Part shown: piece after piece, positions 3,256 through 18,347 of the stretch
How the letters are laid out: each line of letters opens with the position of its first letter
How positions within the stretch are numbered: position 1 is the stretch's first letter
Assembly (NCBI GenBank): GCA_000620005.1
Contig: JHVF01000009.1
Coordinates: 1-37,194, forward strand
Length of the DNA stretch: 37,194 nucleotides
Direction: 5' to 3'
Source of the DNA: Metamycoplasma spumans ATCC 19526
GTDB taxonomy: Bacteria; Bacillota_I; Bacilli_A; Mycoplasmatales; Metamycoplasmataceae
The notes under the pieces: model-generated
Seen by the model: only the letters and a program-made list of their open reading frames with translations
Database searches by the model: none
What the model was told of the DNA's origin: nothing
Translations under genes and position numbers: made by a program

Positions 3256-3999
3256 ATGAATCAATTAGAATTTAAAAATGTGTTTGCTACGTATAAAAAA
3301 AATCAAGATTTAGTTTTGCAAGATGTCTCTTTTGAAATAAAAAAAGGTGAAATGGTAGCAATTATTGGAAAATCAGGAGCTGGTAAATCAACGATATTCA
3401 ATGCAATATTAAAACAGCTGAAGATAACTAATGGAGATATTTTTTTAAATGGCAGTAGCTATAAAAAAATGACAAACAAACAATGAAAAAAGGAGCTAGC
3501 AAATATTGGTTTTTTAAGCCAACAACCAAATTTAATTGAAGATTTAAATGTTTATGAAAATATATTACATTTCTATACCAAATACAAAAATTTTATATAT
3601 AGTTGAGTAAAAATATTAACAAAAAAACAAAAACACGAAATTTATGAAACGCTAGATAAATTAGGAATATTTGATAAAAGTTTTACAAGAGTTTCAGAAC
3701 TAAGTGGCGGACAAAAACAACGTGTTGAAATAGCAAAGTTACTCTTACAAGATGTGTCAATAATTTTAGCTGATGAACCAACTTCAAATTTGGATATTAT
3801 AAATGCCGAAGAGGTTTTGTCATTATTAATCAAAATTCAAAAAGAAAATCAAACAACTATTTTAGTTAACATACACGATTTATCTTTAATTAAAAAATTT
3901 TTTACAAAATATATCTATGTCGAAAATGGCAAAATTCTTAACATCGGAGATACTGATTTATTAACTGAAAATGATTTGAAAAAAATATATCAAGAATAA
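3256..3999 (+). CDS. ABC transporter ATP-binding protein, PhnC-like, without partners
   Basis: This 247-residue complete ABC ATPase has Walker A GKSGAGKST (about residue 37), Q-loop FLSQQPN, signature LSGGQKQ, Walker B ILADEPTSNLD and an H-loop in NIHDLS. The spacing and the tail (VENGKI followed by a C-terminal LKKIYQE) resemble PhnC-type ATPases. In mycoplasmas these occur as the p29 ATPase of P37-type uptake systems, with a binding protein and a permease. Here neither partner is adjacent: ldh lies upstream behind a terminator, and a P-type ATPase lies downstream behind another. The substrate is therefore unknown. The start is supported by a -10 box 7 nt upstream and no SD, i.e. leaderless translation. 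UGA Trp codons occur at 3484 and in the middle. Confidence 0.85.
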
Positions 4000-4032
4000 T
4001 ATTCAATAAATATCAATTAATTAAGTTAAATT

Positions 4033-4056
4033 AGAGTTATTATTTAACTCTTTTTT
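4033..4056 (+). terminator. Rho-independent terminator after the ABC ATPase
   Basis: Stem AGAGTTA (4033-4039) / TAACTCT (4045-4051) with a 5-nt loop leads into a T tract to 4056. It isolates the ABC ATPase from the downstream P-type ATPase. Confidence 0.8.
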
Positions 4057-4107
4057 AATTTATAAGCCAATTTGTTATAAAATTATGTTATTAAATTAAC
4101 GAAAGGA

Positions 4108-4221
4108 TAGGTTCTATGGATATACCTAGTTATGAGCGGAGTTATAAATTAGTTAATAAGTTTATTAGAACTTATCTTTTTTAATTTATTCTGCTCTCCT
4201 TAATTTTTTAAAAGAAGGAGG
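4108..4221 (+). promoter_or_regulatory. Structured 5' leader of the P-type ATPase: candidate attenuator or riboswitch-like RNA
   Basis: Four elements are visible. (1) A 5' hairpin TAGGT (4108-4112)/ACCTA (4124-4128) holds a start codon in its loop. (2) A long hairpin pairs GAGCGGA (4134-4140) with TCTGCTC (4190-4196) and ATAAATTA (4144-4151) with TAATTTAT (4182-4189). (3) Inside it, ATAAGTT (4156-4162)/AACTTAT (4169-4175) is followed by C and six T, an intrinsic terminator by itself. (4) CTCCTT (4196-4201) is exactly complementary to the Shine-Dalgarno AAGGAG (4215-4220). A possible -10 (TATAAA) lies at 4076-4081. Control by attenuation and/or SD sequestration, perhaps by Mg2+, is inferred. 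No M-box consensus was recognised. Confidence 0.6.
4116..4184 (+). CDS. Possible 22-codon leader peptide (uORF)
   Basis: ATG 4116 follows AAAGGA (4102-4107) at an 8-nt distance and opens a 22-codon frame (begins MDIPSYERSY) that ends with TAA at 4182-4184. The frame runs straight through the internal terminator and stops at the end of its T tract. It includes a CGG arginine codon, which appears rare in this window, plus one Pro and three Tyr codons. This geometry suits a leader peptide whose translation influences the hairpins, but a frame this short can arise by chance in AT-rich DNA. Confidence 0.35.
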   Translation: MDIPSYERSYKLVNKFIRTYLF

Positions 4222-4224
4222 AAT

Positions 4225-9003: not shown

Positions 9004-12000
9004 ATGAAAAGATTGTTTAAAGAGGTGTTTAAATCCCTTTCTAAGAATAAAGTAACATTAATTTGTTTAACAATATTAATATTTTTAACTACATTTTTAT
9101 TTACTTTATTAAACAATGTTAAAAGTAGTTACTCAGGTACAATTAATGCCTATGATAAGGTATCTAGATTACATGATATAACTGTTGATTTAGATGTTAA
9201 TCCATCTGGAATTGCACCCAATTCAGGCTTTAGTCAAGTTGGCGAAGATAATAACACTGTTGTAAAATCTCCAATTAAATTTGAGTCATCTGATAATGGT
9301 TTTAATAAGACATACTCAATTAATTTATTACCATCTCAGCAAAACTATATTAAATTAAAAGACACATTTGAAAATTGAAATGTTAATAATGAAAATTACT
9401 ACATTAGTACAGAAGATTTTATGAGATTTCTTTACGAAGGATCAAATTCTGTTTCTAGTGTTGATTTTGAAATTTTAAAGTCCAACCCCAACGAATCTAA
9501 AATAAGAAATTTTACATTTTCTGGTAAGGACCGTCAATTTAAAATTTATTTAAAAGATGGAAACAAATTTGTTCCACATACAGCAAAAGTATCGATTAAT
9601 AAGAATCAAGAATTAACTTTTGTAAAAGCCTTTAAAATAAGTGATATTGCAAATATTGGTTATGCCGCAAGAGGAGCTAATGGAGCTCAAAACGAAAGTG
9701 ATTTTTTATACAATCCCTCACCTTTATTCATAAATATCCAAACTAACGAAGCATCATTTGATACTGTTGATTTTGATAAATGAAATGCTGAAAATAATTT
9801 AGTTGTTATATCAGGATCTGATGTAATGGAATTGTTAGGATTTGAAAAAGCAGAAAATCATAATAAATACTTTTTTAATGAAGAAAATGCTAAAGTGGCT
9901 GATATTAAATTAGCATCTAATTTTAAAACTAACAATATGACAATTGAAGGCAATGATGAGTTAGTTTTAAGCTTTAACTTAAATTCTTATTTAGATAAAA
10001 ATGAAATTAGCAAAGATATTAATCAATACGAAACATTAGCTGCTAATCAAATTTATAAAATACCAGCAAGTTGAGTAAGATCTTCTGAAACATTAACAAC
10101 TTATAATTGATATCGTTATATTTTGAACTGAAATGAATCAAGCGACGAAAATGAATCAAACTGAAAGGGTTCGTATTTCAAATTTATTTCTGAATTTAAA
10201 GAAAAATACCCACAAGATTATAAAAAATATTCATATTTTACTTATTGAAATAAAACATTGGTTACAACATATAAAACCAATCTTAACCAAGAAGTGATTA
10301 CTAAAACAGTTCCAATAACAAAAGAAGATGCATTAGCAGTGTTTAAAAATCCATGAGATGGCGGAACTGAAAATTCAAAAATTCCTTCTGAAAATAAAAA
10401 TATTGAAAGAAAAAAATTACACAATATTAAACAAATTGAATTTAACGAATTTGGCGATTCATTAATTTCTAATGAGCAATATAACAAAATTTCGAATGTT
10501 AATAATTTAAAAGAACATCAAAATTTTATTCGTTCAGGTTCTGATAATTATGCCAAGACTTCAATTATTAATGACATTAGAAAGCAAGTTGGAGAAGAAA
10601 ATCTTGGTATTAGACAAAGTATAACTGTAGAAACCGTTAATGAAGAAACGGCGCAAAAGAATGTTTACCATTTTGTTAATATGGGTGATAAAGATCACAA
10701 ATTAATGGGAATAACACAAAATGTTGATAAATTATACAATGATACTCTAAATCCATCAGTTCTTAATTCTTCAATTACAGATACCAACGTTGATGAGTTT
10801 ATTTTGAAGTCAAACCCTAATTCGAATTTAATTCAAAAAATCCCTTCTGTTTACACATTTTCAATTATTCAAAAAATATTTGAAAAGTTTACACCCGATA
10901 TTAATTATTTCAATCCTGATATTAGATTTGAAAAATATTATGATTTCTTAGCCAAAACAGAAGTTCCTTATTTAGTAAATGGAAAAATTTTAGGTATTAC
11001 AACTGCAACGGCAGAACCTATGAATCCAAAAGGATCAACTTTAATAGGTGCAATAGCAATGCCAAGCAATGGTCGTTATATTCTATTAAAATATTCGCCA
11101 ATAAAAAACTTTACAGAAAGAAATGTTTGAAATAAGGTTTTAGTTGATGGCAAAGAATATTTAACAATAAATGAATTATACGAATTTATGGTTAAACAAG
11201 ATTACACTGTTAGAGGTGATATTGGCCCTAATGGTTGAGCTCAAGTTAATCCAACATTTAAAAACTCAATTAGTTTGCCAATTGCGTTCGGTGCTATTTC
11301 AAGTGATTTAACTAATGAAATTATTCAAAAGAAAACAATTAACGGATTAATTGAAAGAGTAAGAACAATCATTTTAAGTTCTGATATTGCTAAATTATTC
11401 AAAAAGGATGATTTATACCGTGTGTTTAATGCAGTCTCAAAAAGTGTTGAATCTAATGACTTTCACACTTTATTAGCTGTAGGTAAGACAAATAACTTTA
11501 TTTTACAAAAAGTAATTTTAGATGTTATTAAATTTTTAAATGAACCAATTGATCATAGTAAGAATAAGAATTTAGAATTCAATAATATGAATGCTAATAC
11601 CTTTATAAAAAATATGTTAGGTACAGTAATTGATTACTTTGAGAATATTTATAATAATTCTTCTTCGACGCCAGCTGGCCGTGATGAATATTTAATTAAG
11701 CAATTAGAAAATTTAAACAATATAATCAACTTAAGAAATTTATATGTAATTCCTCAACTTAAATTAAGTTTATTTGATTTAATTAACCTAATAAAAGATA
11801 AGTCAATTATCTTTAGTGTTTTAAAAGGGATTATAAATTCAATTGACTTTGTGAAGTTTTCTGCAATAGTTCAAGACTGATATGAAAAGCATCCATATAA
11901 ACCTTTCACATCTCAAAAAGATACTTATTGAACAATGTCTTCTTCAAGATTGTTTATTAGCTTTTTAAGATCTGTTGATGAATATGCAATTAAAAAATCA

Positions 12001-15000
12001 ATTCAACAAATTATTAACGCTGTAGATTTTTCAAAATTTTTAAGCCCTGAATCACCTACTGGATACTATCAAAGATGATTAGTTGCTAATGAGCTTGCTC
12101 AAGTTAATTTAAGCCAAGAAACTAAAAATAATGTTAAAGAAATATTTAATAAGTTAAATGGAGCTGAAGATAATGAACAACCTTATAGCAATATTAATAA
12201 AGGTTTATTTAATTTAATTAGTAACTTTAACTTATCTCGTTTTACATCATCACTTGAAGGTTTGATTCAACATCAAAAATATCCAGTTATTGCTAATAAT
12301 AAAATTTATCCAGATTATAATACTGAAAGCATATCTCAACCTGATTATTTAGCTTCGTTTTTAACATCAATAAACTCGGCTGATATTGAAAATGTAAATA
12401 GCGGTAAAATTTTACAAATTCAAAAAGCAATTAATCAAATATTTAATTTATCTTCAAAAACTGATAATGTTGTTAAAGAGTTAAATATAGCAATTCCTGC
12501 TAAAGATAATAAAAAAATATCTCTTCTAGATTTACCAACTCTTTCATCGTTAGCATTTCCTAGTTCTGTTGCAAATAGCGACTTACCTACTACAATTACA
12601 TTGCCAATAAATAGATATAATGTAAATGATATTAATAAAGTCTTGTCAAAAATTAGAGATGCTAAAGAAAATAATAGTTCGTTAAAATTAACCGAAAATG
12701 AATACAACTTTATTAGAGGTCCGATTAAAGCGAATAATTTAGATATTTCTAATTTACAAAGTTTAGAAAATAAAATTATTGAATACCGTGATTTTGTTTC
12801 AAAATTATTTATTACTAATTATTTACCACAAAATGGAAAATATGATTTTGATAATCGTGGACTATTAAATAAAGATATTAAAACTTACGGTGATTTGGCT
12901 TATCGTTCAGCATTGATTAATCCAAATGATCCATTACACAAAAATGATGGAGAAATATTACAAACATTACATAGCGTTTTAGCACGTAATTTCGTTGGTG
13001 ATATGTTAGGCTCTGGCCAAGAAGGAATTATTAGAAATCAATTGGCAATGTATAGTCTATGAATAAAAATTGCTTATCAACTAAATAGATTAGCAATTGC
13101 TCACGAAAAAACCATTACCGACCCAACAACTGGTGATAAATATTTGGATTATACATATGAAAAATTCTTGAGTTACGATCAAATTAGTTTAATACTAAAT
13201 GAACTTTTGAACACTGCTAAAAGTGCTGAAATTAAAAACTTAATGGCTAATTACGACGCTGTTATTAATCCTATTCCAAGCATGGGTATTTTAGGAAGCG
13301 ACAATAACTATCGTTCAACATTATTAAAAATCGCATACGCAAATGCTTCAACAACATATGCAAACAAAGAATTAATTAAGGCAATTAACGACAGCCAAAC
13401 ATTTAAAGCAATGTTTGATAAGCTTAAAAAAATGGGTATTAATGATGAAGTTATTAAACTAATTAAAGACGTATTTATTAGAAATTCAAATGAACTTTCA
13501 TATAACTTTGGATACATAGCTTCAGCTGATCAAATGCCAACGTTTTATTTAGAATCATTGAATACATTTTTATCTTCATTTATTAAAACCACTAATAAAG
13601 AATCAAATACTCAATTACAACCTTTAGTAACATCTGATTTTATTTTTGATATTTTATACTCACAAACTCTAGAATCAACAAATTTACCTGAACATTTATC
13701 ATTATTAAATATTCCAAGGAACTTATTGAATCCATTTACTTTCATGAGCTTCCCACAAATTTTGATGTACTATGTTTTAAGTCCAAATCCTAATGAAGGA
13801 AATCTTGGCTATATTGTTAAAAAACTTTTAGATAACCTTCAAGGTGCAGACATTAAGGATATCAAAAACCAAATTATCTCGATAACACAATCATTCGGTT
13901 CTGGCCCTATATTAATTGAAAGTAAAAGCGATGAAGCTGTCAACTTAGATATTTCATATTTTAATTACTTGCTAAATCAAAAATTGGTTGCTCCAAACGG
14001 AAAAGACTTAGTATTATTCGATTTAAATATTTCAGAAACGATTAGAAATGCTTTGGCAGACGTTATTAAACCAGTTGTTATTAGTAACTTAATTTCATAC
14101 ACAGATTCCGGTTCATATTTTGCAAAAGTAAATTATGGATACATGAATGCCAATAATAAAGAAGTCTATACAGGTGACGTTACACAATATTTATCAAACC
14201 CTTATAAAATGCAATTATTTATTAGCTCGCTTGAAGATAAATATAAAATTAAAGTTAACAGTCAAGAGTATTTAATCATTGGTATTGACGGTACTGCTGA
14301 CTATCTATATCCAGTTGTTAACGAAGAAAATATTCAAGTTAACACCAAAAACCAAGCTATTATCTATGTAAACTCAAAAGGTTTTGACAGAATTTATTCG
14401 GCTTATCCTACATTTGCCGTTAAAACATATGCATTAGTGAAATCGCCAACCAATGCAAGAGGCAGGGTTTTAGAAAATAAAACTCCAGAAGAATTAAAAG
14501 TTGAATTTAACAAAATTATTGATAATGTTGCGCAAAGTTCAACTAGAAAAGTTTATTTAAAAGATGAACAAGACAATATCAACCCTGAAAGATACATCAG
14601 AGTAATAACTATTAGATCAATTGTCTCATCAATTAGAAATGCAACAATTTATTTAAGTACTATTTTAACTATCTTGGTTGCCTTTATTGTTTACTTTATT
14701 GTTAAGAGATACATCGAAGCAAGAAATAAAGTTGTTGGTATTTTAAGGGCCCAAGGTTATAAAACAACAGAAATAGCTCTTTCATTCTGTGCATTCGGTT
14801 GATTGCCGGCTGGTATTGGTGGTTTATTTGGCTATATTTTAGGATTTGCCTTACAATTACCTGCGATGAGAGTTCTATCTTCGTATTGAACACTAGAAAA
14901 TAATGTAATACCGTTTAATGCACTTACGATGATATCGACATTATTGGTTCCTATTTTATTTGTTTCGGTGTTAATTTATATTATTACAAGAATTTCAGTA

Positions 15001-17406
15001 TCTAAAAAACCGACTGAATTAATGAGCGGTTTAACAGAGGTTTCAATAGGAAACATCGGACAAAAGATTTCAGCTTTATTTAGAAGATTACCTGTTAAAG
15101 CAAGATTCATAGCTTCAATGGCCTTGAATAATTTCTGAAAAATGTTTTCACTATTTCTTGCCTTTTCAACTACTTCATTAATTTCGATGTTCTTCTTATC
15201 ATCGAATAATGTATTTAACAAGGCTATATCGAAAACATATAAAGATAGGTTATATAATTTCAAACTTGATTTAGAAAGCCCTACAACTGAGGGTGGCCCA
15301 TATACAACATATAATAAAAATGACATTAACAATCTGTTGTATGTTCCTAACGATTTAGCGGGTGGAACATCAACGAATGGAAGCCAATTGGATTATGATA
15401 ACCCGAACTTTTTAAGACCTGGCGGATCATTTAACACTGATGTTATCCATCATCCTTATGATCCTACAGTTATTACAAAATCTTCATTAGACATTTTGAT
15501 GGATTTATCGGTTGAATTATCACCTTGAGATGTTACATATGCAAACATGCCAGAAACTCAAAGAGCGCGGGTTGCACAGATATTTAAACGTGTATCAATC
15601 GAAATGCAAAATACTCAGTTCTTAATTGATTTAAGAAAATTAAAAGCGAACAAAGACTACACAAATATTACTACCGGATTATTAGATGATAACAATAACA
15701 TAATAGCCGTTAGAGATATTAAGAAATTTATTGAAGATCATAATTCAGGGAAGCCTGAAGATTTATCAAACAGAGCAAGTTACTTTATATTCGGGGGTCC
15801 AGGTTACTTTGATGATAGTGTTGACCAATCTGGCGGTGATGGTAAAATTACTGAACAATTTAGATTTGTTGAATGAGACCCTGTCAATGAAATATATCTA
15901 AAACCTAAAAAAGTAACAACAGCAAGGTTTAGACAAGAATATCGTAATTTTCTAGTTAATGCATATCGTAAAATCAATAGCAATGATTTCTTTGTTTCAT
16001 TTGGTGGAATTTTCTGAAATGAACCTACAAATGAGAAATATACCTACGCAAAAGCATTAATTAATGGTAAAGAAAATAGAATTTATGGATATTACGACGA
16101 TAGTAAATTTGTTAAATTAGAAAATAAAAAAGGAGAAGATTTAACTAAAAAATTACGTGAATATAATTATCATTTTGATAGCAATGATGCAATTCCAGTT
16201 GTTATAAATGAAGTTGCCTTACGTAAATATAAACTAGATATAGGTTCGGTATTTTACGGTGAATTATTGAACCACGTTGATAGATACAGTCATAAAGCTT
16301 TATTACAACAGGCTCCAAGAACTGGATATAATTTCAAAGTTATTGGAATATCTCAAACATATATTAATACTGAAATTTCAACTAGAAAAGATATTTTAGA
16401 CCACATTCTTGGATATGACACACTAAGTCAAAGATTGAAAAAAGCTAGAGAATGAGAACTTGAAAAAGATATATATTTAAACCCTGAAAATTCTGAAAAA
16501 ATTAAAAGAGAATTTGACAGAAAATATGATGCATTTAATGGTGTCTTATCAAATGATAATACTCCTGTTCAAACAATCGACACTTTAACAACATATTCAT
16601 CAACAGGATTCTGAGGTGCGGCAGCTTCGTATGATGTTGATTCATCAAGCGACCAAAGTGTTTGAACATTCTTTAAGAGAATATTTATTTCTAATAAGAG
16701 TTTAAATTATGTTTCTGTATATGAACATAATGTTAAAGCTTATAATGAAGCTCACCCAGAAGCTAAACTAGATTACAAAACTCAGTTATTTAAATTGTTA
16801 AATATCGATGAAGAAAAATTCCAAGAAATTGTTAAAGAAGCTAATGCTAATGAGAAATATAAAGTATTGGCACGTAAAATACTAACTAAATTTTATGGTA
16901 CTCAACCAGATTCAATATATGGTAAGAACATAATGTATGGTGCTTCATTTGATGTTAATAGTAAAGATATCGAAGCGGGATTTACGGCAGGTATATCTAA
17001 TACAATTAATACTATCTTAGTAGCGTTTATAATTGTTTCGTTAGTTATTTCAATTATTATTTTAATTGTTATTACTAATATTATGATTGCTTCAAATCAA
17101 AGATCAATAGCAACATTTTCAGTGTTAGGTTACACTAACCGTGAAAAAATATTCTTGTTCTTCTTTAACTTTGTTCCGGCAATTATATTAGCTTGTGTTT
17201 TAATGATTCCAGTCACACTTTCAATAATTGCATTGTTTAATGCGTTTATGATGGTAACAAGTCAAATTGTGCTTCCGTTAGTATTGCACGCCTCAACAAT
17301 TATTTTAAGTACAGTAATTTGTTTATCAGTATTTATTGCAACTTCTGTTGCTACATGAAAGAGTCTAAATAAAGTTAAGGCTGTTGATGCCTTGAAAGGA
17401 AAATAA
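9004..17406 (+). CDS. Giant FtsX/MacB-type ABC transporter permease (2800 residues)
   Basis: One frame, open only with UGA=Trp, runs 2800 residues from ATG 9004 (SD GAGGAG). TM1 is at about residues 16-38, followed by about 1840 residues that must be outside the cell. Then come TM helices near 1877-1901, 1929-1955 and 1976-1998, and a second anchor near 2045-2066 preceded by RFIASMALNNFWK. A second extracellular part of about 600 residues follows, then TM helices near 2667-2697, 2718-2750 and 2760-2785. The end, VKAVDALKGK, and the 1+3 / 1+3 helix plan match duplicated FtsX permeases (LolC/MacB class). The extracellular domains are rich in Asn, Lys and Ile and contain no enzyme motif I recognise. 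The stop overlaps the ATPase start (TAATG), so the two form one transporter. Substrate unknown; export or lipoprotein/lipid handling is inferred from the class. Confidence 0.88.
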
Positions 17407-18347
17407 TGTCTAAAGAAAAAAAATCAGTGACTAAAAAAAGTAAAAAATTAGTTGATGAACAAACTTTGCAAGATATTAATCTAATTAACATTAAGAAACA
17501 TAAAGAACCTTTCGAGGTTAAAGATGAAGGTGTTAAAATTAAAGTTTTAGACGCTGCCACACTTAAAAAATTTAAAAAGGCTAATAATAAGCCAAGAAAA
17601 AAAGACGCCGACTATAATCAAAAAAATACAGGCGATAATATTGTGGAAGTTTCCGATGTTAAAAAAACATATTTATCAGGTAATGTTGCGACTGATGTTT
17701 TAAAAGGTATAAGCTTTGAAATTAAACGTGGTGAGATTGCAATATTATATGGTAAATCAGGTTCTGGTAAATCAACACTACTAAATATTATTAGTGCATT
17801 AGATCGTCCAACTTCGGGTAAAGTGATTGTTAATAATGTGAACTTACCTTATTTAAGTGATAATAAACAAACTTTATTTAGAAGAGAAAATATTTCATTT
17901 ATTTTCCAAAACTATAACCTATTGCAAAATTTAAATAGTTATGACAATGTTGAATCTGGATCATATTTGCAAAAAGATAAGTCAAAGCATTTGGATATTA
18001 AAAAATTATTTAAGGATTTCGATTTACAAGAATGTATGTACAAATATCCTTCGCAAATGTCCGGAGGGCAACAACAACGTGTTTCAATTTTAAGAGCTAT
18101 TGCTAAAAACTCTGAAATACTCGTAGCAGATGAACCTACTGGTGCTTTGGATGAAAAAACCGGTTTAACAGTTTTAAAAATATTGCAACAAATTAATCGT
18201 GATTATGGAACTACAATTATCGTTGTTTCACATGATCCCGATGTCGCTAAAATGGCTGATAAAGTTATTTATTTAGAATTAGGTCATATAAAAGAAATTG
18301 CAATTCAAGAACGCGAATGATTAATTGAAAAAAATGCAACAAATTAA
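17406..18347 (+). CDS. ABC transporter ATP-binding protein (LolD/MacB class), partner of the giant permease
   Basis: A 313-residue protein translated from a TAATG overlap with the permease gene. Residues 1-77 form a Lys-rich, charged N-terminal extension. The ABC domain starts near NIVEVSDVKKTY (79), with Walker A GKSGSGKST (116-124), Q-loop IFQNYNLLQNL, signature MSGGQQQRV, Walker B LVADEPTGALD and H-loop VSHDP. The LLQNLNSYDNVE and ADEPTGALD segments are characteristic of the LolD/MacB/FtsE branch that drives FtsX-like permeases by mechanotransmission. The C-terminus needs one UGA Trp at 18318 to reach TAA 18345. The basic extension is unusual for this family and could contact membrane or nucleic acid. 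Confidence 0.93.

Follow-up and report, generated by a model that had tools for sequence, protein, structure and literature searches.

How does a mycoplasma, an organism in which regulators of transcription are very few and the control of metal uptake is poorly known, set the synthesis of a magnesium pump? The question is raised by the leader of a gene in a 37,194-nucleotide stretch of DNA from Metamycoplasma spumans ATCC 19526 (hereafter the window, which forms contig C9 in a genome of 836 kb). This gene, mgtA, matches the magnesium-translocating P-type ATPases (TIGR01524, E 7e-302; NF011702 above cut-off), as had been proposed in a sequence-only reading of the same DNA. Upstream of mgtA lies an ABC-type ATPase gene (3256-3999), and a terminator-like A/T hairpin with a T-run (4028-4056), located 3' of this ABC ATPase gene, separates it from mgtA. 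Farther along the window, an ORF of 2800 codons (9004-17406) is directly followed by an ABC ATPase gene (17406-18347).

On balance, we consider it probable that the mgtA leader works as a bistable attenuator of translation, controlled by the ribosomes on a uORF and responding to Mg2+, the attenuator architecture itself being more secure than its Mg2+ reading. The heart of the leader is a pair of exclusive folds and not a terminator. Its parts are as follows (SD-like runs, open frames and anti-SD elements are counted over the 10 leaders described below).

4078-4083, + strand: TAAAAT, probable -10 box from its sequence; transcription start expected at about 4089-4092
4101-4121, + strand: segment s1, 5' arm of helix P0, with the uORF SD and start codon; pairs with 4160-4181
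4102-4107, + strand: uORF SD, AAAGGA; SD-like purine run before the uORF ATG in 10/10 leaders
4116-4184, + strand: 22-codon uORF, MDIPSYERSYKLVNKFIRTYLF; ATG at 4116, stop TAA at 4182-4184; frame open in 10/10 leaders
4134-4151, + strand: segment a, 5' arm of helix P1 (4134-4140 and 4144-4151, bulge GUU at 4141-4143); pairs with 4182-4196
4137-4139, + strand: uORF codon 8, CGG, a rare Arg codon by codon counts, conserved as CGN
4156-4175, + strand: hairpin P2 (s2:s3), arms 4156-4163 and 4168-4175, the 'terminator' of the sequence-only reading; -4.3 kcal/mol, covaries across lineages, excludes P0
4160-4181, + strand: segment s3, 3' arm common to P0 and P2 by pairing and covariation; runs into U6 at 4177-4182
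4182-4196, + strand: segment b, 3' arm of P1, next to the anti-SD and partly overlapping it; P1 and P3 overlap by 2 nt here and by 2-8 nt in the other leaders
4195-4201, + strand: anti-SD UCUCCUU, 5' arm of helix P3, complementary to 4215-4221; anti-SD in 10/10 leaders
4215-4221, + strand: mgtA SD, AAGGAGG, 3' arm of P3
4225-7038, + strand: mgtA, 937 aa, genetic code 4

Several of these elements had already been described: the SD-preceded uORF of 22 codons whose frame spans the supposed terminator, the 15-bp stem with a 3-nt bulge within 4134-4196, and the exact complementarity of CTCCTT (4196-4201) to the AAGGAG of the gene (4215-4220). All are present as described. The sequence-only reading had nevertheless missed the largest helix, P0, which uses the same 3' arm as the 'terminator' hairpin. 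With -21.6 kcal/mol including its inner fold, P0 dominates the default fold and buries the uORF SD and start codon. Absent from that reading too was the long stem P1 as an element predicted to free the mgtA SD. Given the TAAAAT box, transcription probably starts upstream of the uORF; no -35 consensus was found before this box, and a TANAAT box is located 32-45 nt 5' of the uORF ATG in 9/10 leaders.

Is the leader a peculiarity of the window? Since a BLAST search of 58 genomes with the leader DNA detected, apart from the window itself, nothing but AT-rich noise, orthologous leaders were found via the MgtA protein, which has orthologues in 19 of the 24 genomes of the genus and in 46 of the 135 genomes of the family. 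The same leader, composed of an SD, a 21-26-codon uORF, a hairpin in its 3' half, an anti-SD and an SD, precedes mgtA at 10 of these 19 genus loci. The element proposed to regulate the pump gene is real and conserved. The nine remaining loci of the genus, as well as all examined loci of the family genus g3, have different or short leaders. In the MgtA tree, 9/10 leader-bearing genes fall into a single 12-member clade (support 100/99), inside which losses have occurred, the broken gene of genome G016 being represented by its intact C-terminal part only. The tenth leader, from genome G007, stands outside this clade and is the least certain member: it aligns poorly, and its locus (L125, 1335-1452) contains two possible uORFs, the first without the codon-8 Arg and the second, starting ATG AGG CGA, behind an SD that is covered by a P0-like helix.

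Two other loci deserve mention in their own right. At L130 (genome G016), the leader is intact and the mgtA frame apparently interrupted, with one in-frame TAA and a single long intact stretch, beginning at query residue 228. At L122 (genome G020), inside the leader-bearing clade, mgtA is preceded by a leader of another kind, ~130 nt in length, which forms a long A/U hairpin (AAAAAAGTAATTT...AAATTACTTTTTT), lacks a conserved uORF and has possibly replaced the conserved leader.

A profile search of the 135 family genomes (model R1, built on sequence only because RNAalifold gave no consensus pair) retrieved the nine seed leaders, each from a different genome and always at mgtA; beyond them it gave nothing credible, only noise. 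Rfam has no match to the leader, neither at gathering score nor at E 10, in agreement with the sequence-only reading, which had recognised no M-box, mgtL or other known riboswitch consensus in it; a match to the sRNA SpF43 (18 bits vs a gathering score of 70) was dismissed as a chance similarity. In the open-access literature, we found no account of this leader.

As this RNAalifold run on the MAFFT alignment of the leaders found no consensus structure, the case for covariation rests on our own pairing tests. In the alignment-free test, the 5' segment of each leader was paired with its own 3' segment and with those of the other leaders, a real pairing being expected to make the cognate combination better. 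For P1, the cognate mean was -12.6 kcal/mol vs -8.9 kcal/mol for non-cognate pairs, and 0/20,000 permutations were as good (10 leaders). A scan across the leader for covarying interactions returned three, P1, P2 and P0. As the ten leaders come from about six lineages, their relatedness limits these pairing statistics; with one representative for each of the six lineages, the cognate pairing was matched by 2/720 permutations in P0, by 3-7/720 in P2 and by 7-38/720 in P1. Control segment pairs showed no such signal. The compensatory changes in the 4134-4151/4182-4196 stem that the sequence-only reading had hoped for in orthologous leaders are thus found, and the anti-SD:SD pairing (4196-4201/4215-4220) is kept in 10/10 leaders, being too conserved to leave a covariation signal (52-233/720 permutations as good across six lineages). 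Dinucleotide shuffles over the 10 leaders gave Stouffer z values of -10.1 for P1, -8.3 for P0, -8.1 for anti-SD:SD and -4.4 for P2, vs -0.2, +2.1 and -3.2 for three control pairings, the last of which (s1 with b) probably reflects the SD-like sequence in s1. The resemblance between the two SDs also suggested a pairing of s1 with the anti-SD, but this does not covary and was rejected.

In 10/10 leaders, s3 serves as 3' arm for both P0 and P2, which are hence mutually exclusive; P0 and P1 would cross and could coexist only as a pseudoknot. A static structure has no need for covariation in each of two exclusive helices with a common arm, and we regard it as highly improbable that the leader is a constitutive structured 5' UTR that stabilises the mRNA or fixes its translation at a low rate, even though P3 is predicted to be stable in nearly all states and nine mgtA orthologues manage without this leader.

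At which level would such a switch act? The sequence-only reading had placed a complete intrinsic terminator in the leader; on a version of that reading, termination at 4182 would be the main event and anti-SD control an extra. The hairpin (4156-4175) and the U6 run (4177-4182) are indeed there, and in the window both P0 and P2 run into this U-run. However, the hairpin is weak and A-U rich, no consensus terminator was called, and a matching U-run is absent from the other nine leaders, so that the GC-bearing hairpin followed by a U-run, typical of intrinsic-terminator attenuators, is not conserved across the orthologues; mainly intrinsic termination is barely plausible. Of the two control points formerly proposed, the translational one is general, with anti-SD:SD in 10/10 leaders, but the transcriptional one is confined to the window genome, where P0, which also ends in the U-run, would probably add transcription termination. 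Because a U-run follows the hairpin only there, the output that all leaders have in common is translational control.

Forcing the alternative folds in silico indicates how this output could be set. With P1 forced, the predicted openness of the mgtA SD rises in 10/10 leaders (mean 0.62), as compared with 0.09 when P0 is forced and 0.10 when segment a is blocked, and the predicted openness of the uORF SD is 0.68 with P1 vs 0.32 with P0. From these values, we assign P0 with P3, in which both SDs are hidden, to the OFF state and P2 with P1 to the ON state. In the OFF state, P0 would hide the uORF SD and start codon, and the anti-SD would hide the mgtA SD. Ribosome loading at the start of the uORF, which is presumably translated, would keep s1 off s3 and allow P2 to form; with segment a clear, P1 (a:b) would then form in competition for the anti-SD and leave the mgtA SD exposed. 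In contrast, a ribosome held over codons 4-12, notably by the poorly decoded CGA or CGG at codon 8, would cover segment a and leave mgtA OFF. In the model, the mgtA SD stays closed with a ribosome on these codons (0.09-0.10) and partly opens with a ribosome from about codon 14 onward. When Mg2+ is low, an early departure of the ribosome from the uORF would free segment a once P2 had formed, and mgtA would turn ON. A ribosome at the uORF stop was rejected as the common ON signal, since it frees the mgtA SD in only 3/10 leaders. Since P3 comes out on top in free-energy models under almost every condition, the switch may be modest; in genome G000, where P1 and P3 overlap by only 2 nt, forced P1 raises mgtA SD openness to just 0.23.

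The leader has two hallmarks of uORF-based translational attenuators, namely a gene SD sequestered by an anti-SD (10/10 leaders) and exclusive helices with one arm inside the uORF (P0 and P2 share s3, and the 5' arm of P1 is in the uORF). Could the RNA rather sense a metal or another ligand directly, with P1/P2 or a P0xP1 pseudoknot as aptamer and the uORF as an incidental feature? A G-N-N-C-G sequence in segment a is conserved even where it is unpaired, and a pseudoknot is the only way for P0 and P1 to coexist. Yet little sequence is invariant beyond the uORF start and codons 5-8, the SD, start and open frame of the uORF are kept in 10/10 leaders and Rfam offers no match, making a riboswitch very unlikely.

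If ribosomes govern the leader, the place where they would be held can be sought in the uORF itself. Its most conserved coding feature is an Arg at codon 8 following Glu or Asp (Gly in G016), within a motif S-x-[ED]-R-S at codons 5-9 that is present in most of the 10 leaders. Outside G007, codon 8 is CGN in 9/9 leaders, CGA or CGG in eight and CGC in one. CGA and CGG together account for 5% of the Arg codons of the same loci, and in window genes each represents 2 of 10,873 codons (codon usage computed from the window and the retrieved loci). The window genome has tRNA-Arg genes with anticodons ACG, TCT and CCT, and no tRNA-Arg(CCG) gene was found among the 30/34 tRNA matches that could be typed; in the neighbouring loci, three of the remaining four were typed as Ser or Leu, the fourth being of the 90-nt long-arm type. 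As mollicutes of the Hominis group are reported to lack tadA, all CGN codons must be read by unmodified A34 (PMC3711424), whose pairing with A and G is weak (PMC11066159). The sole deaminase match in the genome, to PF14437, was rejected as TadA: the protein is dCMP-deaminase-like and far below the TadA cut-off. Moreover, [ED]-R is kept at codons 7-8 in three leaders whose P1 has shifted to other nucleotides, and pairing alone does not explain its conservation. With a codon that is conserved beyond what pairing explains, rare and weakly read, it is reasonable to infer that the ribosome is slow at codon 8.

A slow codon for arginine opens the possibility that the same RNA switch responds to arginine or to the charging of tRNA-Arg(ACG): when Arg-tRNA is short, the ribosome would wait at codon 8 and cover segment a, with mgtA OFF. 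The prominence of the Arg codon in the uORF and the closed mgtA SD under a modelled ribosome at codons 4-12 both fit this proposal, as does the gain of ATP from arginine in M. hominis-group species (PMC2751442). Synthesis of this ATP-driven pump would in that case be confined to times of plentiful arginine fuel. The uORF, however, has only one Arg codon, whereas classical amino-acid attenuators use several, mgtA is a Mg2+ pump gene and not an arginine gene, and arginine may not be the only fuel since the window genome also has PGI and LDH genes; an arginine signal is thus less likely than Mg2+, though a serious rival to it. Returning to Mg2+, a more specific version in which the leader senses this ion through decoding quality appears quite unlikely: CGA and CGG would be read by the unmodified A34 tRNA at a speed that, for such weak pairing, should depend on Mg2+. 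Were it correct, one uORF codon would report cellular Mg2+ through the position of the ribosome and set the translation of the pump, with no need for Rho, a protein regulator or a riboswitch aptamer.

The known kind to which the leader belongs is that of uORF-controlled leaders of Mg2+ transporters, of which it is a new variant. For enterobacterial mgtL, translation of early codons has been proposed to select between RNA conformers of the mgtA leader (PMC11282234). Both have a short SD-preceded uORF in the 5' leader of a gene for an mgtA-type Mg2+ P-ATPase, and this analogy, together with the identity of the gene, suggests Mg2+ as the most likely signal. Unlike mgtL, whose output is Rho-dependent termination, the mycoplasma leader is predicted to act on translation by SD sequestration, differs in sequence and fold, and has a rare Arg codon as its conserved core. 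No Rho scored above cut-off in the 24 genus genomes (best 57 bits vs a cut-off of 509, likely other ATPases), and Rho-dependent termination therefore cannot apply. The uORF peptides (MDIPSYERS, MELPSCERY, MEVQSSDRT, MKKPDGERS and others) contain one or two acidic residues and in some cases proline, with no clear EPDP destabilising N-terminal motif.

Other families share parts of this design. In erm and cat translational attenuators, the uORF pause site lies inside one arm of alternative helices and the downstream SD is hidden by an anti-SD. The mgtA leader likewise combines a uORF, with a putative pause site in a helix arm, and an anti-SD over the downstream SD, but no antibiotic is involved, the SD of the uORF is itself hidden in the OFF fold, and pausing of the ribosome is expected to hold the gene in its OFF state. 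Amino-acid attenuators have conserved codons in a uORF overlapping alternative helices. The conserved, poorly decoded codon of the mgtA uORF is similarly placed, except that it is single and that mgtA is outside the pathway of that amino acid. With the M-box (ykoK) and the Rfam Mg-sensor family, the leader shares its location before a Mg2+ transporter gene but, as stated, no match.

In sequence, fold and output, the leader of this mycoplasma Mg2+ pump is thus unlike enterobacterial mgtL. If our reading is correct, a different form of ribosome-based mgtA control would have arisen in a minimal genome that lacks Rho, and a decoding peculiarity of mollicutes, the reading of CGN codons by one unmodified tRNA, would be tied to gene regulation.
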